A stretch of DNA of 63,463 bases from an uncultured Candidatus Actinomarina sp. (GTDB lineage: Bacteria; Actinomycetota; Acidimicrobiia; Actinomarinales; Actinomarinaceae), in contig CACODT010000006.1 of assembly GCA_902626065.1 (NCBI GenBank), positions 1 to 63,463 on the forward strand, written 5' to 3'. Made by a program: the position numbers and the translations under genes. Shown here in pieces: positions 2,431 to 24,713 of this stretch; the first letter of the stretch is position 1, and each line of letters opens with the position of its first letter. The notes below the pieces were generated by a model. It was not told the DNA's origin and searched no databases. It worked only from the letters and a program-made list of their open reading frames with translations.

Positions 2431-2787
2431 ATGGATGATTACATTATTAAAAGATTCGAAAACCCTGATGAAGTCAGAGATTTTGAAAAAGGAAAATATG
2501 AAGTAGTAAATCTTCCACATATGACTATCGGCAAGGCAACTTATCATAAAGGGTGGAAATGGTCAGATGACGTCTCCCCTCTTTCTGGAACAGAGTTTTG
2601 CGAGACAGAACATTTGGGAATGGTTATTAGTGGAAATGCTACAGTTGCATTTGAAAATGAAGAGCCTAAGATAATTGGCCCTGGAGATATATTTTATGTT
2701 TCAAATACCCCACACGACAGCTGGGTTGTTGGTGACGAGGATTATGTCTCAATTCATTTTATGGGTGCAGAGAAATATGCAGATTAG
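2431..2787 (+). CDS. Cupin-domain protein
   Basis: A protein of about 118 residues with a single cupin barrel. The first motif region contains E-F-C-E-T-E-H-L-G-M-V-I-S-G, followed by the second motif G-P-G-D-I-F-Y-V-S-N-T-P-H-D-S-W. Acidic and histidine residues sit where cupins bind metal. Small stand-alone cupins include isomerases, dioxygenases and sensors, so the reaction cannot be assigned. I take ATG 2431 as the start because a -10 hexamer lies six bases upstream; starting at TTG 2413 would place the start inside the divergent promoter. The next gene begins eight bases after the stop, suggesting co-transcription. Confidence 0.75.
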   Translation: MDDYIIKRFENPDEVRDFEKGKYEVVNLPHMTIGKATYHKGWKWSDDVSPLSGTEFCETEHLGMVISGNATVAFENEEPKIIGPGDIFYVSNTPHDSWVVGDEDYVSIHFMGAEKYAD

Positions 2788-2794
2788 GTTATAA

Positions 2795-3205
2795 GTGTCT
2801 TATTACACAGATCATGGAGAAGTCTTGTATCAAATAAGATTAAATGTTTCAGATGACTTTACTGACAATGATGTTCTCAATGAATTATTAGAAAATCATA
2901 ATTCATCACTAATGTGCCAATACGATGCATTTGTATTTTTTGTTAGAGAATGTGAAAACAAAAAAGAGACAGATAATTCTTTGTATAAGTGGACTAAAGA
3001 CACAATTGAAGATGAAGTTAAAAAAGCTAAATATGAAAAAATTTACTCTGTATACGTTGAAAAGAAACAAGTCTATAAGGAAGACATTGCAGACAAAATA
3101 ATCGAAGAAATAACAAATCTTAATTTATCAACTATTGAATCCATAGATAAATTTGATACTCAACCTAAAAATAATCCGAAACCTCCAAAACAATTTAGAG
3201 ATTAA
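2795..3205 (+). CDS. Hypothetical charged protein
   Basis: A 136-residue soluble protein starting at GTG, with a weak AGG six bases upstream. It is rich in Asp, Glu and Lys, has no signal peptide or membrane segment, and ends in a Pro/Lys/Asn-rich tail. The middle looks helical. I recognise no family. It lies between the cupin gene (7 bases) and the MFS gene (11 bases) on the same strand, so the three may form one transcript. Confidence 0.55.
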   Translation: MSYYTDHGEVLYQIRLNVSDDFTDNDVLNELLENHNSSLMCQYDAFVFFVRECENKKETDNSLYKWTKDTIEDEVKKAKYEKIYSVYVEKKQVYKEDIADKIIEEITNLNLSTIESIDKFDTQPKNNPKPPKQFRD

Positions 3206-3216
3206 ATAGTTTCATT

Positions 3217-4494
3217 ATGAGTAAGAAAGTATATGTACTTTGGTTTGGTCAAACATTGTCATGGACAGGATCAGCTATGTCTTTTTTTGCTATAGGTGTT
3301 TGGATATTTGAGACAACAGGAAGAGCTAGCGCTCTATCGACAATATTATTTACTGTTGGCATCGTTGGTGTGGTTACAGGACCTTTCGGGGGTGTCCTTG
3401 CAGATAGGTTCCCAAGAAAACAATTAATTATAAGTTTTGATCTAGTCATTGCCTTTTTAATGTGTGTGATTGGGTACTTTGCTATCAATGATAAATTAAC
3501 AATAGCGATGCTCATACCATTTGCCTTGGCCTTTGGAATATTCGAAATAGCCCATTGGACAACTTGGAGTGCCTTCCTTGGGGATGTAGTTAAAAAACAA
3601 CATGTAACAAAAATTTCAGCTTTATTTGAAAGTGCAGAAGCATTTTCTGTATTACTGGGGCCAATTGGAGGAGCATTAATTTATTCTTATTTTGGATTAT
3701 CAGGGGTCATCCTTGTCGACCTTATTACATGTATTATTGGTATCGCTACTATTTCTTTATTCAAAAGTGAGAAACAAATTAAAAAAACTAAATTAAGTTT
3801 TAAAAATATCTATTCGGATCTACACGAAGCATATGTTTGGCTTAAAAATCAAAAGGGGCTTCTTGCATTAGTTTCAATACTCAGTATCTCTAATTTTTTC
3901 TGGGGTTTCACAACTGTTCTTCTGCCACCAATAGTATTGACTTTTTCAGATGCAAGAGGACTTGGAATTATTGAATCTACTATAGGGCTTGCTTTTCTTG
4001 TTGGATCAATTATTTCTCTTCGTTATTCAGAATATCTTCAGGGAAACATAAAACTTGCTATCCAATGTGGTCTTTTGGGAGGTATAAGTCTGATATTTGG
4101 TTCTCTACGACCAAGTATTTTTCTTCTTTGTATCTTTGGAATTATAAGTGGAGTAAGTGGCACCGTTCAATACACAATATCATCAGGTGCATGGCTAGCT
4201 ATTACAAACTCTGACATAAGGGGTCGTGCATTAGCTCTACGAGGAACAATTGCACAAATGTTACGCCCAATTGGTGTCCTTATTGCTGGACCCTTAGGAG
4301 ATTATTTAGAGTTTTCATTTTACCCAGACAATATTGAATTGCTTTCACCAATCATTGGAACAGGCCCTGGAAGAGGTTATGCTTTATTGTTTTTATTAGT
4401 TGGTATTTTATATATCTGTGTTTGGTTGATTAACTATCAAAATAAAAATTTAAAAAATCTTAGTAATCAGGTTCTAGAAATTACAAAAAATTAA
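3217..4494 (+). CDS. MFS transporter (MFS_3/EntS-like)
   Basis: A 425-residue integral membrane protein with about 12 hydrophobic helices and a central loop near residues 185-205. The loop after helix 2 contains G-G-V-L-A-D-R-F-P-R-K, the major-facilitator signature. Overall the sequence resembles the MFS_3 or EntS-like exporters, which are proton-coupled efflux pumps for siderophores or drugs. Its substrate cannot be read from sequence. It is the last gene before tRNA-Val and probably ends the cupin transcript. A second MFS of the same subfamily lies at 30152-31405. Confidence 0.85.
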   Translation: MSKKVYVLWFGQTLSWTGSAMSFFAIGVWIFETTGRASALSTILFTVGIVGVVTGPFGGVLADRFPRKQLIISFDLVIAFLMCVIGYFAINDKLTIAMLIPFALAFGIFEIAHWTTWSAFLGDVVKKQHVTKISALFESAEAFSVLLGPIGGALIYSYFGLSGVILVDLITCIIGIATISLFKSEKQIKKTKLSFKNIYSDLHEAYVWLKNQKGLLALVSILSISNFFWGFTTVLLPPIVLTFSDARGLGIIESTIGLAFLVGSIISLRYSEYLQGNIKLAIQCGLLGGISLIFGSLRPSIFLLCIFGIISGVSGTVQYTISSGAWLAITNSDIRGRALALRGTIAQMLRPIGVLIAGPLGDYLEFSFYPDNIELLSPIIGTGPGRGYALLFLLVGILYICVWLINYQNKNLKNLSNQVLEITKN

Positions 4495-14627: not shown

Positions 14628-15089
14628 ATGAAAAAATATTTTATTCTACTTGTTTTACTTGCATTTTGTTCATCTAGTTCTGATTCTTCTTCAGATGAAC
14701 CTACTCAAAGTGTTGCAGCAACTTCAATACAAGAACTTGTCTATGAAGATGAGAATGGCAATCTTGTAAACGAAGACCTAACAAATAAAAAGACTCTTGT
14801 TGTTTTTTGGGCCGATTATTGAGGTATATGTAGGGAGGAGTTGCCTCTCTTAGAAGCTAATTTAGCAACAATCGAACAAAGCTATGATGTGATCGCTCTT
14901 GCGCATAGTGATAAAGATTCAACAATGAGTTGGGTTGAGGAAAATTTAAAAGGTGAAATTACAATAGGTTTTTCAACCTCAGAAATGAGAGATAATCTGA
15001 AAATTATCGGCCAGCCTATTTCTTTGATTATTGATACCGATGGAAACATACTGTCACGTGAATACGGCTATGTTCCAAACGATTTATAA
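14628..15089 (+). CDS. TlpA/thioredoxin-like lipoprotein, candidate selenoprotein (in-frame TGA)
   Basis: One continuous frame of 153 residues is interrupted only by TGA at 14820-14822 (residue 65). Reading TGA as Sec gives V-V-F-W-A-D-Y-U-G-I-C-R-E-E-L-P, exactly where TlpA/ResA-like proteins have W-C-x-x-C, so U replaces the nucleophilic Cys. Downstream, G-Q-P-I-S-L-I-I-D-T-D-G-N is the cis-Pro loop and strand. Both halves are therefore needed for the fold. The N-terminus is a lipoprotein-type signal with Cys14 (L-A-F-C, an unusual Phe at -1) followed by a Ser-rich linker. A SECIS-like hairpin follows the TGA. TGA is a normal stop elsewhere, for example at 24711-24713. A sequencing error or decayed gene is the alternative. 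No sel genes are in the window. Confidence 0.8.
14832..14850 (+). promoter_or_regulatory. Candidate bacterial SECIS hairpin
   Basis: AGGGAGG (14832-14838) pairs with CCTCTCT (14844-14850) as seven base pairs including one G-U. The apical loop is AGTTG. The loop G at position 2 is 17 bases after the TGA, within the remembered 16-37 base spacing for bacterial SECIS elements. The stem is inside the coding sequence, as required in bacteria. Confidence 0.7.
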
Positions 15090-15164: not shown

Positions 15165-16298
15165 GTGAAAAAATCATTTCTTATACTTCTCTGTCTTTCC
15201 CTTTTACTCACTGCTTGTGGTGGTGCGGAGGAAGAGACAACAGAAGAATCTGCAGTTGTTGAAGAAGAGGTAGAAACTCTAGATTCTCCAGCCGTTACCA
15301 CTGCTGAAGTTTTAGATAAAATTACGTTCGGTTTCATTCCAAGTGCAGAACAAGCTGACCTTCAAGATAATATCAAACCATTAATGAAAGTTTTAACTGA
15401 TGGTCTTGGTATTGAAGTTGAAGGATTTGTAACTAGTGACTTTTCAGGTTTATTAGTTGCTATGGGATCTGGTCAAGCAGACATTGGTGCATTCAACACA
15501 TTAGGTTATGTGAATGCTCTAAACGTATTCCCTACAAGAATTGAAGCAATTGCAAAAGTTGTAAGATACGGGTCTGGCTCTTACCATGCTAACTTTTGGA
15601 CAACTGATCCAAGTGTATGTGACTCACCACCTGTAATTGGAGCATTTGAAAATATTGATGGTGTTCCTACTCTCATCTTAGGTTCTGAAACAGAATCTCC
15701 AGATGTTAAAGCTTTACAGGTTGGATGGACTTTTGGAGATAATGGAAAAATTCCAGAAGTAAGAAACATAGATGGTGTTGATGTTACTGTCAGCCCAGGT
15801 TATGCATGTGAAGCGGACCTAAATGTACTTAGAGGAGAAAAGGTATTATTTGTTGAAGAGGGATCAACCTCTGGTTATCTTTATCCTTCATTACAGCTAA
15901 AAAATATGGGTATCGATTACAAAAGTGATATCACCCAAGTATTTGCAGGTTCTCATGATGGAGTTATTTCCGGACTGTACAATGGCGATGCAAAGTTTGG
16001 CGTTACCTATGACGATGCAAGAAGAACTTTAAGAAAAACTAACCCTGATGTTGGTGAAAAAGTTATTGCTATAGGGATATCAGCTGAGATTCCTAATGAT
16101 GTTGTTGCTGTAAGATCTGACTTACCTGAAGATATAAAATCAAAAATATATCAAATTCTATCTGATTATATGGCTACCGATGAGGGTGCTGCTGTAATGG
16201 ATGAAATTTATGGTTGGACAGATGTCGTACCAGCTGACAATTCAGAATTTGATGTTGTCAAACAAGCAGCCGAAGAATTCGGCCTTTACGACGATTAA
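15165..16298 (+). CDS. phnD: Phosphonate-type ABC transporter substrate-binding lipoprotein
   Basis: 377 residues. A lipoprotein signal ends L-L-L-T-A-C-G-G, then an acidic linker, then a PhnD-like periplasmic-binding fold. It begins I-T-F-G-F-I-P-S-A-E-Q and has G-S-G-Q-A-D-I-G-A-F and a Y-D-D-A-R segment. The GTG start has a strong GGAGG Shine-Dalgarno. Family members bind phosphonates, phosphite or phosphate. No phosphonate or phosphite catabolic gene is nearby, so the ligand is open. It is the first gene of a four-gene importer operon and is followed by a strong hairpin. Confidence 0.88.
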   Translation: MKKSFLILLCLSLLLTACGGAEEETTEESAVVEEEVETLDSPAVTTAEVLDKITFGFIPSAEQADLQDNIKPLMKVLTDGLGIEVEGFVTSDFSGLLVAMGSGQADIGAFNTLGYVNALNVFPTRIEAIAKVVRYGSGSYHANFWTTDPSVCDSPPVIGAFENIDGVPTLILGSETESPDVKALQVGWTFGDNGKIPEVRNIDGVDVTVSPGYACEADLNVLRGEKVLFVEEGSTSGYLYPSLQLKNMGIDYKSDITQVFAGSHDGVISGLYNGDAKFGVTYDDARRTLRKTNPDVGEKVIAIGISAEIPNDVVAVRSDLPEDIKSKIYQILSDYMATDEGAAVMDEIYGWTDVVPADNSEFDVVKQAAEEFGLYDD

Positions 16299-16304
16299 AA
16301 GATT

Positions 16305-16338
16305 TTTTAACCGGGTTGATTATTCAACCCGGTTAAAA
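16305..16338 (+). terminator. Hairpin between phnD and phnC
   Basis: AACCGGGTTGA (16309-16319) and TCAACCCGGTT (16324-16334) pair perfectly around a TTAT loop. The stem is extended by T/A pairs and followed by AATTTTAAT. It lies nine bases before the phnC ATG. As an intra-operon partial terminator or 3'-end stabiliser it would keep binding-protein mRNA above transporter mRNA. Confidence 0.8.
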
Positions 16339-16346
16339 TTTTAATA

Positions 16347-17114
16347 ATGATTAAATTTGAAAATGTAAGCGTCACCTATCCAGGAGGCGTTGAAGCACTT
16401 AAAGATCTAAACCTAGAAATCAAAGATGGAGATTTTATCATTATTGTAGGTCTTTCCGGTGCAGGTAAATCTACCCTTCTAAGAACAGTTAATAATCTAG
16501 TGAAACCTTCAACTGGTTCTGTCTATTTGGAAGATGTAAATGTTACGAGTGCAAAGAAAAAGGAATTGAAACAAATTAGATCACAAATTGGAATGATTTT
16601 TCAAACATTTAATCTTGTAAATAGGTCAACTGTTTTAAAAAATGTTCTTACTGGTAGATTGAGTAACATTTCAACAATTAGATCAATACTAGGACTTTGG
16701 CCTAAAGATCAAAAAGAAATGGCTTTTGAAGCTTTGAATCAGGTTGAGATATTAGAAAAAGCATACGTGAGAGCATCAAACTTATCCGGTGGTCAGCAAC
16801 AAAGAGTAGGTATTGCCAGAGCTCTATCTCAAAAACCAAAAGTTATGTTGGCTGATGAGCCTGTTGCTTCCTTAGATCCAATTACATCAAGAGTTGTAAT
16901 GAGTTATTTAAAGAAAATAAATACTGAACTTGGTATAACAACTATTGTTAATTTGCATTTTCTTGATTTAGCAAAAGAATTTGGAGATAGGCTTATTGGA
17001 CTGAGAGATGGGAAACTTGTATTTGATGGAAATGTAAATGATGTTTCCGATGAAGATTTTGAAAATATATATGGAAGATCAATAAAATCTTCTGATCTAA
17101 TTGGTGATGATTAA
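16347..17114 (+). CDS. phnC: Phosphonate-type ABC transporter ATP-binding protein
   Basis: 255 residues. Walker A is G-L-S-G-A-G-K-S-T (35-43), the signature N-L-S-G-G-Q-Q-Q-R-V-G, and Walker B V-M-L-A-D-E-P-V-A-S-L-D. The insertion after the Q-loop (T-F-N-L-V-N-R-S-T-V-L-K-N-V-L-T-G-R) is typical of PhnC. It powers import with the two permeases that follow and overlaps the first by eight bases. Confidence 0.93.
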   Translation: MIKFENVSVTYPGGVEALKDLNLEIKDGDFIIIVGLSGAGKSTLLRTVNNLVKPSTGSVYLEDVNVTSAKKKELKQIRSQIGMIFQTFNLVNRSTVLKNVLTGRLSNISTIRSILGLWPKDQKEMAFEALNQVEILEKAYVRASNLSGGQQQRVGIARALSQKPKVMLADEPVASLDPITSRVVMSYLKKINTELGITTIVNLHFLDLAKEFGDRLIGLRDGKLVFDGNVNDVSDEDFENIYGRSIKSSDLIGDD

Positions 17115-17889
17115 TATACCAAAAAAACCGGCACCAACGTACCTTGTAACTTTAGGTATACCTGCAGCAATACTGTTTACGATTTTTTCTTTTAGAAGAA
17201 TAGGTTTCAACCTTCAAGACTTTAGAGAAAATCTAGCAAATCGAGCAATTGTTACAGATCCATTATTTAATCCAAAATGGCAATGGGCTTGGGAAAACAC
17301 AGCAGATGCTTTACTCGAAACTGTACAGATAGCAATCCTTGCAAGTATCGTTGGATGTGCGGTTGCATTGCCGTTAGCTTTTTACGCATCAAGAGCCACT
17401 AATTTAAATAAATACTCTTATTTTTTATACAAATCTTTTTTAAATCTTGTAAGAACAATTCCAGATTTGTTCTGGGCAATGTTATTCACAGTTGCTGTGG
17501 GGATAGGTCCATTTGCTGGTGTGCTTGCATTAATTATGTTTTCACTGGCAATAATGGGTAAGCTCCTATCTGAAACAATTGACAGTATAGATCCAGGACC
17601 TATGGAAGCTGCAAAAGCAACAGGCGCATCACATAATCAATCAGTTTTTACTTCTGCGTTACCACAAGTGTTACCAAATTATACTGCTTATTTTCTTTAC
17701 ATTTTTGAGTTATGCATAAGAGCTAGTGTAATTCTTGGCTTAGTTGGTGCAGGTGGGGTTGGTAGGATTATTGAAACACAAAGAATCTTTCTTAGGTTTG
17801 ACAGAATATCTCCAATTATTGTAATAATTCTTGTAGTCGTAATACTTATTGAACAATTCAGTGTATGGATAAGAAGAAGAATTATATGA
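17107..17889 (+). CDS. phnE: Phosphonate-type ABC permease, first copy
   Basis: About 260 residues with six membrane helices. The inner-membrane coupling motif reads E-A-A-K-A-T-G-A-S near residue 175, and the late motif G-L-V-G-A-G-G-V-G-R is typical of PhnE. I take ATG 17107; TTG and GTG codons just before it are in frame. Two different PhnE copies in tandem imply a heterodimeric membrane channel. Confidence 0.9.
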   Translation: MINIPKKPAPTYLVTLGIPAAILFTIFSFRRIGFNLQDFRENLANRAIVTDPLFNPKWQWAWENTADALLETVQIAILASIVGCAVALPLAFYASRATNLNKYSYFLYKSFLNLVRTIPDLFWAMLFTVAVGIGPFAGVLALIMFSLAIMGKLLSETIDSIDPGPMEAAKATGASHNQSVFTSALPQVLPNYTAYFLYIFELCIRASVILGLVGAGGVGRIIETQRIFLRFDRISPIIVIILVVVILIEQFSVWIRRRII

Positions 17890-18689
17890 AGATTCCACAA
17901 CAGCCCTTAAGTCAACGAGTACTAAAATATTCATTGACCACATTAATCATAATTGGGTCATTATGGTCAGCAGCAGGACTTGAGATAACTCTAGAAAGAA
18001 TACTAGATGCTCCAAGGCAAATTGGTATATTAGTTGGAGCTATGTTTCCTCTTGATCTAAGTCAAGAAGCATTTGATAGAATAATTCCTAAAGTTTTTGA
18101 ATCCTTATTTATAGCGTGGGCTGGAACAGTAATTGGAGCAATATTTAGCTTTCCAGTTTCTTTTTTAGCTGCGCAAAATGTTGCTGTTGGAATTGTGAGT
18201 AGAACAACAAAACAAATATTAAATGCAATAAGGGCTTTCCCTGAATTAATTTTAGCATTTGTTTTCCTACCAATCACTGGACTTGGTCCATTCACTGGAA
18301 CATTAGCAGTAGGCATACATTCTATTGGCACATTAGGAAAGTTGTCTTCAGAGGTTATCGAAGGAATAGATGAAGGACCTTTAGAAGCTATAAAATCATC
18401 AGGTGGGTCCAAATTAAATGAGCTTTCATTTGGTGTAATTCCTCAAGTAATGCCGACAATAACTTCTTATTGGCTTTATAGGTTTGAAATAAACCTGAGA
18501 GCTTCTGCCGTATTAGGTGTTGTAGGTGCGGGTGGTGTTGGTCAAGAGCTTATAAATCAATTGAGGTTTAGAGATTTTCCGAGAGCGGGTACTGTTCTTA
18601 TATGTACAATTATTTTAGTTCTTACTGCAGATACAATTTCAGCAGCAATAAGAAATAGAATTATTAAAGGAAAAGTTGTAAAAAGTTAA
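17886..18689 (+). CDS. phnE: Phosphonate-type ABC permease, second copy
   Basis: About 267 residues, homologous to the preceding permease. It has E-A-I-K-S-S-G-G-S in the coupling loop and G-V-V-G-A-G-G-V-G-Q-E-L near the C-terminus. ATG 17886 forms an ATGA overlap with the stop of the first permease; a start at 17865 is in frame but would overlap more. The stop abuts the ftsK stop in convergent orientation with no spacer. Confidence 0.9.
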   Translation: MKIPQQPLSQRVLKYSLTTLIIIGSLWSAAGLEITLERILDAPRQIGILVGAMFPLDLSQEAFDRIIPKVFESLFIAWAGTVIGAIFSFPVSFLAAQNVAVGIVSRTTKQILNAIRAFPELILAFVFLPITGLGPFTGTLAVGIHSIGTLGKLSSEVIEGIDEGPLEAIKSSGGSKLNELSFGVIPQVMPTITSYWLYRFEINLRASAVLGVVGAGGVGQELINQLRFRDFPRAGTVLICTIILVLTADTISAAIRNRIIKGKVVKS

Positions 18690-22760: not shown

Positions 22761-24713
22761 ATGGAATTTAAGAAAAAAACTTTAGAAACTCAAATTATTG
22801 AAATATTTCAAAAAATTAGTCCAGCAATTACACGACTAATACAATCCGAAACTGATAATGCAAATATTGTTATTAATCTGGGTAAAACTAAAAGCAAAAA
22901 CAAAAACGAGATCAACATAAATCCATCTATTTTGGTTAATGCAGTTTCAGATTCAGAACTTGAATTTAAGGAATTAATAATTGGAACTGTAGTTCATGAG
23001 GCTATCCATTCTATGGAAGAATACAAATTCAATGTTGATGAAGATCTCACAAAATATAAAGATGACACTGAAGGGTTAACTAACATTGATGAAGTTCTTG
23101 AAGTTCTCGCTGGTCCATTTGGAAAATACATTTTTGAAATACTTGTGCATTCCTATGATGAGTTTCAATTTGTAAAAAACTTTAACGGGCTTAGATCAAT
23201 CCTCGAGGATATTTATAAAGAATCTAGTATCAACATAAAAAATTTAAAGCCTTTCAATAAATTCTTAACATTGCTGTTTCATAACATCACAGGGTATGTT
23301 GAATTAGATACAGAAAAGTATCCAAAGAATATTAAAGAACCCCTGAAAGAGACATTGAGAGTATTAGATAATTTTTCATATGATAAAAACTTGATAGAAG
23401 ACACTATTGATATAACGATAGAAATTACAGATATTTGTAGAAGATACAATCTATTACCAGATGTTGATAACCAAACATTGGGAGAACGTAGAGAGTCAAT
23501 AGAAAACTTTGAAGACTCCGTAATTGATGATTTAAACAAAGTCTTAATTCCTTCTAGTACAAACATTACTTCAGGTAATACCTTAGAAAAATTCTTAGGT
23601 AAAAAGGGTGCGGATTCACAGGATGAAAAGCTTAACTTTATGGATGATCATGTTTCAAAAGTTGGAACATCCTCAACCGTTTATCTTCCAAATGGTAAAG
23701 TATCAAAATTACTGAGTACTAATTTACCAAAATCATTTAAAAATTTATATACAAATGGATTAAATACTTATAACTCCCTGTTGGAAGAATGGGATCTGCC
23801 CGTGTTCAAAGTTACAAACAAAATAAAGCCTTACTTTATACATAACAAAAAAAGGCTTAGAATCAGTGGTTACGATCAGGGCGATTTATCACCACATGTT
23901 CCTTTAATGCTTGCATCAGGTAGGTATGAAAGAATGTTTGAACAAAAACAACGGCTTTCAAATAAATCTTATGCAGTATCTCTACTGATTGATGGAAGTG
24001 GATCAATGCTTGAAAAAGATAAAGGTGATTTCTATCCCTGGTCTCTCTCAGCAGCATTAATTGGAGCAAGTTATCTTGCACAAATCTGCCATGAATTAGA
24101 TATTGATTTTGAAGTAGCAATTTTTAATAGAAGCTTTGCAGCAGATGAATTAGAAAATGAGGAATTATATTTAAAAAGAAAGATGGCTGTTTCCTCGATG
24201 TTAAATACAAATTATGGATCGAATGCTGAGTATTACTTCAATACAACAAATCATTATTTTATTAAGAAGTTTGATGATTCATGGAAAGAAAATTATGAAA
24301 AGTTTATAGGTTTAATTGAATTTTCAAGAAACTTAAGGGAGTCTTTAGACAAAATAGAAACCAATATGGACCACCCTCCTGCAAGCATGTTTGAAAGAGG
24401 AACAAATGTTGATGAAAGAAATATAATGTTTTCTACAAAAAGACTTCTAGAAAAAGGTTCAAAAACAAAACTTTTAGCCGTGCTATCAGACGGTATGACA
24501 CGCGGTTCTCTTGACGATTTAAAAAGTTCTATCAATTATGCATCCAAAGTTGGGATTGATGTAATTGGGATAGGTATTGGTGAAAGAGGCACGTGGAAAG
24601 AATATATCAATAAGACCCAAATAAATGAGCCTGAAGAGTTAATTCATTCAATAGTAAACATCACAAAGGATATACTTATAAAGAATATCGAAGAATCTAC
24701 AGGAGTTGCTTGA
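22761..24713 (+). CDS. CobT-like VWA protein with N-terminal HEXXH motif
   Basis: 650 residues. An N-terminal region contains H-E-A-I-H at 79-83, a zinc-metallopeptidase-type HEXXH in a hydrophobic helix context. A long helical middle follows. A C-terminal VWA domain has the MIDAS motif D-G-S-G-S at 411-415 preceded by A-V-S-L-L-I, and a late L-S-D-G-M segment. The region just before and within the VWA resembles CobT of cobaltochelatase. No cobN or other B12 gene is nearby, so a cobaltochelatase role is not supported. It overlaps the AAA gene (TGATG), so the two products are probably made together and act as a metal-dependent VWA-AAA remodelling pair. Confidence 0.7.
   Translation: MEFKKKTLETQIIEIFQKISPAITRLIQSETDNANIVINLGKTKSKNKNEININPSILVNAVSDSELEFKELIIGTVVHEAIHSMEEYKFNVDEDLTKYKDDTEGLTNIDEVLEVLAGPFGKYIFEILVHSYDEFQFVKNFNGLRSILEDIYKESSINIKNLKPFNKFLTLLFHNITGYVELDTEKYPKNIKEPLKETLRVLDNFSYDKNLIEDTIDITIEITDICRRYNLLPDVDNQTLGERRESIENFEDSVIDDLNKVLIPSSTNITSGNTLEKFLGKKGADSQDEKLNFMDDHVSKVGTSSTVYLPNGKVSKLLSTNLPKSFKNLYTNGLNTYNSLLEEWDLPVFKVTNKIKPYFIHNKKRLRISGYDQGDLSPHVPLMLASGRYERMFEQKQRLSNKSYAVSLLIDGSGSMLEKDKGDFYPWSLSAALIGASYLAQICHELDIDFEVAIFNRSFAADELENEELYLKRKMAVSSMLNTNYGSNAEYYFNTTNHYFIKKFDDSWKENYEKFIGLIEFSRNLRESLDKIETNMDHPPASMFERGTNVDERNIMFSTKRLLEKGSKTKLLAVLSDGMTRGSLDDLKSSINYASKVGIDVIGIGIGERGTWKEYINKTQINEPEELIHSIVNITKDILIKNIEESTGVA

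Follow-up and report, generated by a model that had tools for sequence, protein, structure and literature searches.

The window analysed here, a stretch of 63,463 nucleotides, is contig 6 of a Candidatus Actinomarina genome (1,023,914 bases, or 1.02 Mb; 89% complete) and carries an open reading frame at 14628–15089 that contains an in-frame TGA. The frame begins with the ATG at 14628, continues through the TGA at 14820–14822 and ends with the TAA at 15087–15089; its product is read as MKKYFILLVLLAFCSSSSD...VVFWADY-U-GICREELP...KIIGQPISLIIDTDG...PNDL, in which the TGA falls within the motif FWADY-U65-G-I-C68-REELP. The features of the locus are as follows.

14628–15089, plus strand: gene of a predicted selenocysteine (Sec)-containing TlpA/ResA-like lipoprotein, 153 residues, TAA stop (ORF reading, Pfam, AlphaFold2 model)
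14667–14669, plus strand: lipobox codon, Cys14, probably the lipid-modified first residue after maturation (invariant in 31 of 31 aligned homologues; lipobox assigned by sequence reading)
14820–14822, plus strand: TGA, putative selenocysteine 65 at the first position of UxxC (in-frame TGA in 35 of 35 strong genus orthologues, same codon in all 30 that were read)
14829–14831, plus strand: TGT codon of Cys68, likely the resolving residue of UxxC (invariant in 31 homologues)
14832–14850, plus strand: bacterial SECIS-like hairpin with six core pairs, one closing A-U pair and the loop AGTTG (compensatory changes, codon-preserving null, SECIS model search)
15012–15017, plus strand: Gln129-Pro130, thioredoxin-fold cis-proline loop with the GQP signature (both residues invariant in 31 homologues)

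The first-pass annotation had placed this TGA at the nucleophilic position of a thioredoxin-fold motif, and the reading of the frame and of UxxC agrees; the frame beyond the TGA is intact, as it had also claimed, with 88 sense codons, the 89 given earlier having included the stop. When U65 is replaced by Cys, the protein exceeds the cut-offs of Pfam AhpC-TSA (6.8e-08) and Redoxin, and the hydrophobic N-terminus and lipobox Cys14 are conserved by sequence among the aligned homologues. Standard gene calling would break this gene in two at the TGA.

The genes of a PhnD-PhnC-PhnE-PhnE ABC transporter (15165–18689) follow directly downstream on the same strand, and this order is retained in most of the genus loci examined. 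It could be supposed from this arrangement that the lipoprotein serves the transporter, for example by handling cysteines of its binding protein; however, in locus L014 the Sec gene lies between cinA and ftsK and no Phn transporter genes were found beside it, and the neighbours of the Sec gene differ beyond the genus. Both observations weaken the functional tie, which is accordingly regarded as quite improbable.

Conservation of the in-frame TGA

The genus set comprised the 42 genomes of the family, all of one genus, and a strong orthologue was recovered from 35 of them, in every case with the in-frame TGA and in one case with an additional TAA. Neither a Cys form nor a TGA-free form occurs among these 35 orthologues from the 42 genomes searched, and the seven genomes without a strong match are incomplete assemblies (60–82%). 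All 30 orthologues that were read present FWADY-U-x-x-C with the TGA at the same codon, as do seven Candidatus Actinomarina or OCS155 records from single-cell and metagenome assemblies, with a protein identity of 78–88%; independent genomes thus have TGA, and not TGT or TGC, at codon 65, which settles the homologue alignment that had been proposed as a check. The 88 codons that follow the TGA have a dN of 0.07–0.41 and a dS of 1.2–2.5 (dN/dS about 0.03–0.3), which places the downstream frame under strong purifying selection. Cys takes the place of U65 in more distant relatives (L018–L023) and in PDB structures.

A search of 296 Acidimicrobiia genomes with the genus profile uncovered further TGA-bearing matches beyond the genus. 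The 13 relatives that were read are all lipoproteins with FWAEW-U-x-x-C-x-RELPV and a Q-P cis-proline loop; a hairpin follows the TGA at an equal distance in all 13, mostly with the loop AGTTG, and all 13 come from genomes with selA, a gene that 167 of the 254 genomes outside the genus have. Three further class matches that were read (L078–L080) proved to be of another type, with an ordinary CxxC motif. Across the class, selA exceeds the cut-off in 199 of the 296 genomes and the Sec trait is therefore widespread; the earlier statement that selenoproteins are uncommon in streamlined marine Actinobacteria is contradicted by this count and by that within Actinomarina (34 of 42 genomes). A curated annotation model could be started from the Acidimicrobiia family and its covarying hairpin.

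These comparisons bear on whether the TGA might be a true stop or the lesion of a pseudogene, with the two halves separate or decaying. Other genes of this genome do end with TGA, but 35 genomes retain both the TGA and the frame downstream of it, which is under strong purifying selection, and the same codon is TGA in 13 relatives from other Acidimicrobiia genera; nor do the homologues end at the TGA, the outcome that had been named in advance as a refutation. A true stop or a lesion is thus extremely unlikely, and the genus-wide conservation of TGA and frame excludes a sequencing error or a decaying gene in practice.

SECIS-like hairpin and Sec machinery

The hairpin consists of the arms AGGGAGG (14832–14838) and CCTCTCT (14844–14850) around the loop AGTTG (14839–14843), and the G at 14840 is separated from the TGA by 17 bases; its location, its loop and the spacing of this G had all been given exactly in the first-pass annotation. 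Predictors of bacterial SECIS elements expect a hairpin 16–37 bases after the TGA with a G among the first loop bases, and the window hairpin has this spacing and this loop G. Taken singly, it exceeds a codon-preserving null by a moderate margin only, with a minimum free energy of -10.0 versus a mean of -5.2 and with 4.3% of 5,000 resamples equally good; single-sequence folds equal or beat 85–100% of codon-preserving resamples. The six core pairs are formed in all 30 genus sequences, and one pair alternates between C-G (n = 16) and G-C (n = 14), by which the protein shifts from REELPLL to RQELPVL or RRELPVV.

When the 13 other Acidimicrobiia sequences are added to those of the genus, three pairs vary on both sides: column 16–28 is C-G in 26 sequences and G-C in 11, column 17–27 changes from A-U to G-C in 12, and column 13–31 changes from A-U to C-G in six. 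The covariation score is 0.356 versus a shuffled mean of 0.197, a value reached by none of 500 shuffles and by none of the slid controls (at most 0.171); as the cells of this score are sequences rather than events and clade splits account for part of the signal, the covariation is supportive and not independent proof. A SECIS model built from the lipoprotein hairpin matches only 14832–14850, and no second convincing site was found in the genome, which is unsurprising, since the SECIS elements of bacteria vary from gene to gene.

Among the class homologues, L074, L065 and L066 depart from the loop AGTTG, with sequences such as AGCTC, AACTC or AGCTT; these variants may reveal the loop bases that are required by the SelB of Acidimicrobiia.

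The Sec machinery, whose absence had been named in advance as a refutation, is present in the source genome in all the components sought.

C8:34953–36257: selA, profile match of 378.8 bits, over the cut-off
C8:33298–34938: selB-like gene adjoining selA, full length, 212.4 bits, under the cut-off of 242
C7:41081–42001: selD, 371.4 bits, with one in-frame TGA
C5:69308: tRNA-Sec, Rfam 71 bits; ARAGORN SeC(tca), anticodon TCA

The TGA of selD lies in SHGAG-U-ACK, at the known catalytic Sec/Cys position of SelD, and a selD with an in-frame TGA is found in 40 of the 42 genus genomes; selD is thus itself predicted, from its GAG-U-ACK motif, to be a selenoprotein gene. Folding of the sequence downstream of selD gave no clear common hairpin shape in the genus. 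In all eight genus genomes that are at least 90% complete, selA, selD and the Sec lipoprotein are present together. From this machinery and the conserved signals of the locus, it is very probable that Sec is inserted at codon 65 and that the gene is a genuine selenoprotein gene.

The earlier statement that TGA also serves as an ordinary stop holds, for example in the ORFs that end at 17887–17889 and 24711–24713, and among the 51 ORFs of the window that reach 200 aa, 12 terminate in TGA. Read-through was surveyed over 439 kb (43% of the genome) by scoring hexamer coding potential around 19,328 TGA triplets in six frames; only the lipoprotein gene and selD emerged as convincing, the scan being partial and liable to let genes with a TGA close to either end escape. 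Four weaker TGA candidates in the same scan resemble antisense or chance frames. A genome-wide reassignment of TGA, for example to Trp or Gly, would account for the one in-frame TGA that is read through in the lipoprotein gene; however, TGA ends other genes, the Sec machinery is present, and the two convincing in-frame TGA genes in this 43% of the genome both have the TGA at catalytic Sec/Cys positions, so that a residue other than Sec by reassignment has a negligible probability.

Actinomarina cells are numerous in the surface ocean, and their genome ranks among the smallest of free-living cells. It is conceivable, albeit doubtful, that this streamlined 1-Mb organism retains a whole Sec system for little more than SelD itself and one lipoprotein that faces outwards, and that the lipoprotein is the reason for the survival of the trait in the genus. 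The genus-wide Sec system and its lipoprotein client tie the ocean selenium supply to Actinomarina and offer one clear protein to test.

Fold, probable redox role and known relatives

The AlphaFold2 model of the lipoprotein (mean pLDDT 82.7) finds its best structural matches in the DsbE-like structure 3gl3, ResA, CcmG and pneumococcal Etrx1/Etrx2, and the sequence match to 3gl3 is 1.9e-07. The features of the TlpA/ResA-like superfamily are present, namely a thioredoxin fold, a WxxxCxxC-type motif with Sec for Cys, and a cis-proline loop; by contrast, the NCBIfam scores remain below every curated cut-off (ResA, 35.9 vs 170; TlpA, 33.6 vs 230; DsbE, 34.3 vs 123 bits), and the protein is therefore a superfamily relative and not ResA, TlpA or DsbE proper. 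U65 is likely the nucleophile and C68 the resolving residue. A role as a disulfide reductase is probable, and the lipobox and the ResA/Etrx-like fold fit an extracytoplasmic redox function.

Alternatively, the lipoprotein could act at the cell surface as a Sec-dependent peroxidase or other peroxide-reducing redoxin and not as a disulfide reductase; it would still be a selenoprotein. The top Pfam matches by E-value, AhpC-TSA and Redoxin, point in this direction, as does the description of many marine Sec proteins as peroxiredoxin-like in the text of PMC2398784. However, its motif, WA-x-x-UxxC, resembles that of TlpA/ResA, the best structure and sequence matches are ResA, CcmG, DsbE and Etrx, and a peroxiredoxin-like protein with ordinary codons is encoded elsewhere in the genome (C1:244473), which renders the peroxidase function unlikely.

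For the disulfide reductase, a route from synthesis to function can be proposed. SelA would make Sec-tRNA(UCA) using selenophosphate supplied by SelD, and SelB would deliver it at the UGA of 14820–14822, aided by the hairpin that starts 10 bases downstream. The product would be exported as a lipoprotein and located outside the membrane, where the Sec65-Cys68 pair is predicted to act as a thiol-disulfide oxidoreductase of the ResA/TlpA/Etrx type, most likely in the reducing direction. Reducing power to recharge it may come across the membrane from the CcdA-like protein of C1:81695–82222, the one CcdA/DsbD-type membrane protein of the source genome. The genome also encodes a CxxC ResA-like protein (C1:230659), named by sequence reading.

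Pneumococcal Etrx1/Etrx2, which work with CcdA, are lipid-anchored TlpA-like surface thioredoxins, as is predicted for the window protein, and match its fold; they differ in the use of cysteine, and no methionine sulfoxide reductase neighbour was seen by the window gene. Bacillus ResA, E. coli CcmG/DsbE and Bradyrhizobium TlpA share the fold, the active-site position and the cis-proline loop, and are extracytoplasmic, as the window protein is predicted to be; theirs, however, is a CxxC motif and the window protein, which lies far below their family cut-offs, has UxxC with Gln before the cis-proline.

Sec-containing thioredoxin-like and TlpA/ResA-like proteins have already been described, and the window protein joins them with unusually complete support. 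Thioredoxin-like UxxC proteins count among the selenoproteins that are common in the marine GOS metagenome (Zhang and Gladyshev 2008, PMC2398784), and the Trx-like 1 and thioredoxin-like UxxC families named there resemble the window protein as marine, COG0526-related UxxC selenoproteins of thioredoxin fold. These families were, however, named from metagenome reads in a paper whose main text mentions neither TlpA nor Actinobacteria; by this comparison of text only, sequences like the window protein may well be among them. Similarly, a review of 2026 (PMC13188914) lists a Sec TlpA disulfide reductase family with a UGC motif, and this family and the ResA-like NF041054 (WAxxUGC_long) likewise have Sec first in the active site after WA; their motif U-G-C is, however, one residue shorter than the U-G-I-C of the window protein, which scores 27.7 bits against the NF041054 cut-off of 300. 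A literature search for selenoproteins of Actinomarina or Acidimicrobiia found no paper on point.

A CPHC TlpA-like protein adjoining a DsbB-like protein is also encoded in the source genome at C2:95578, both names resting on sequence reading. In locus L143 (1429–2542), a CPHC TlpA-like protein adjoins a DsbB-like membrane protein; the two, both near a rhodopsin-like gene (2614–3276), are possibly an oxidising pair.
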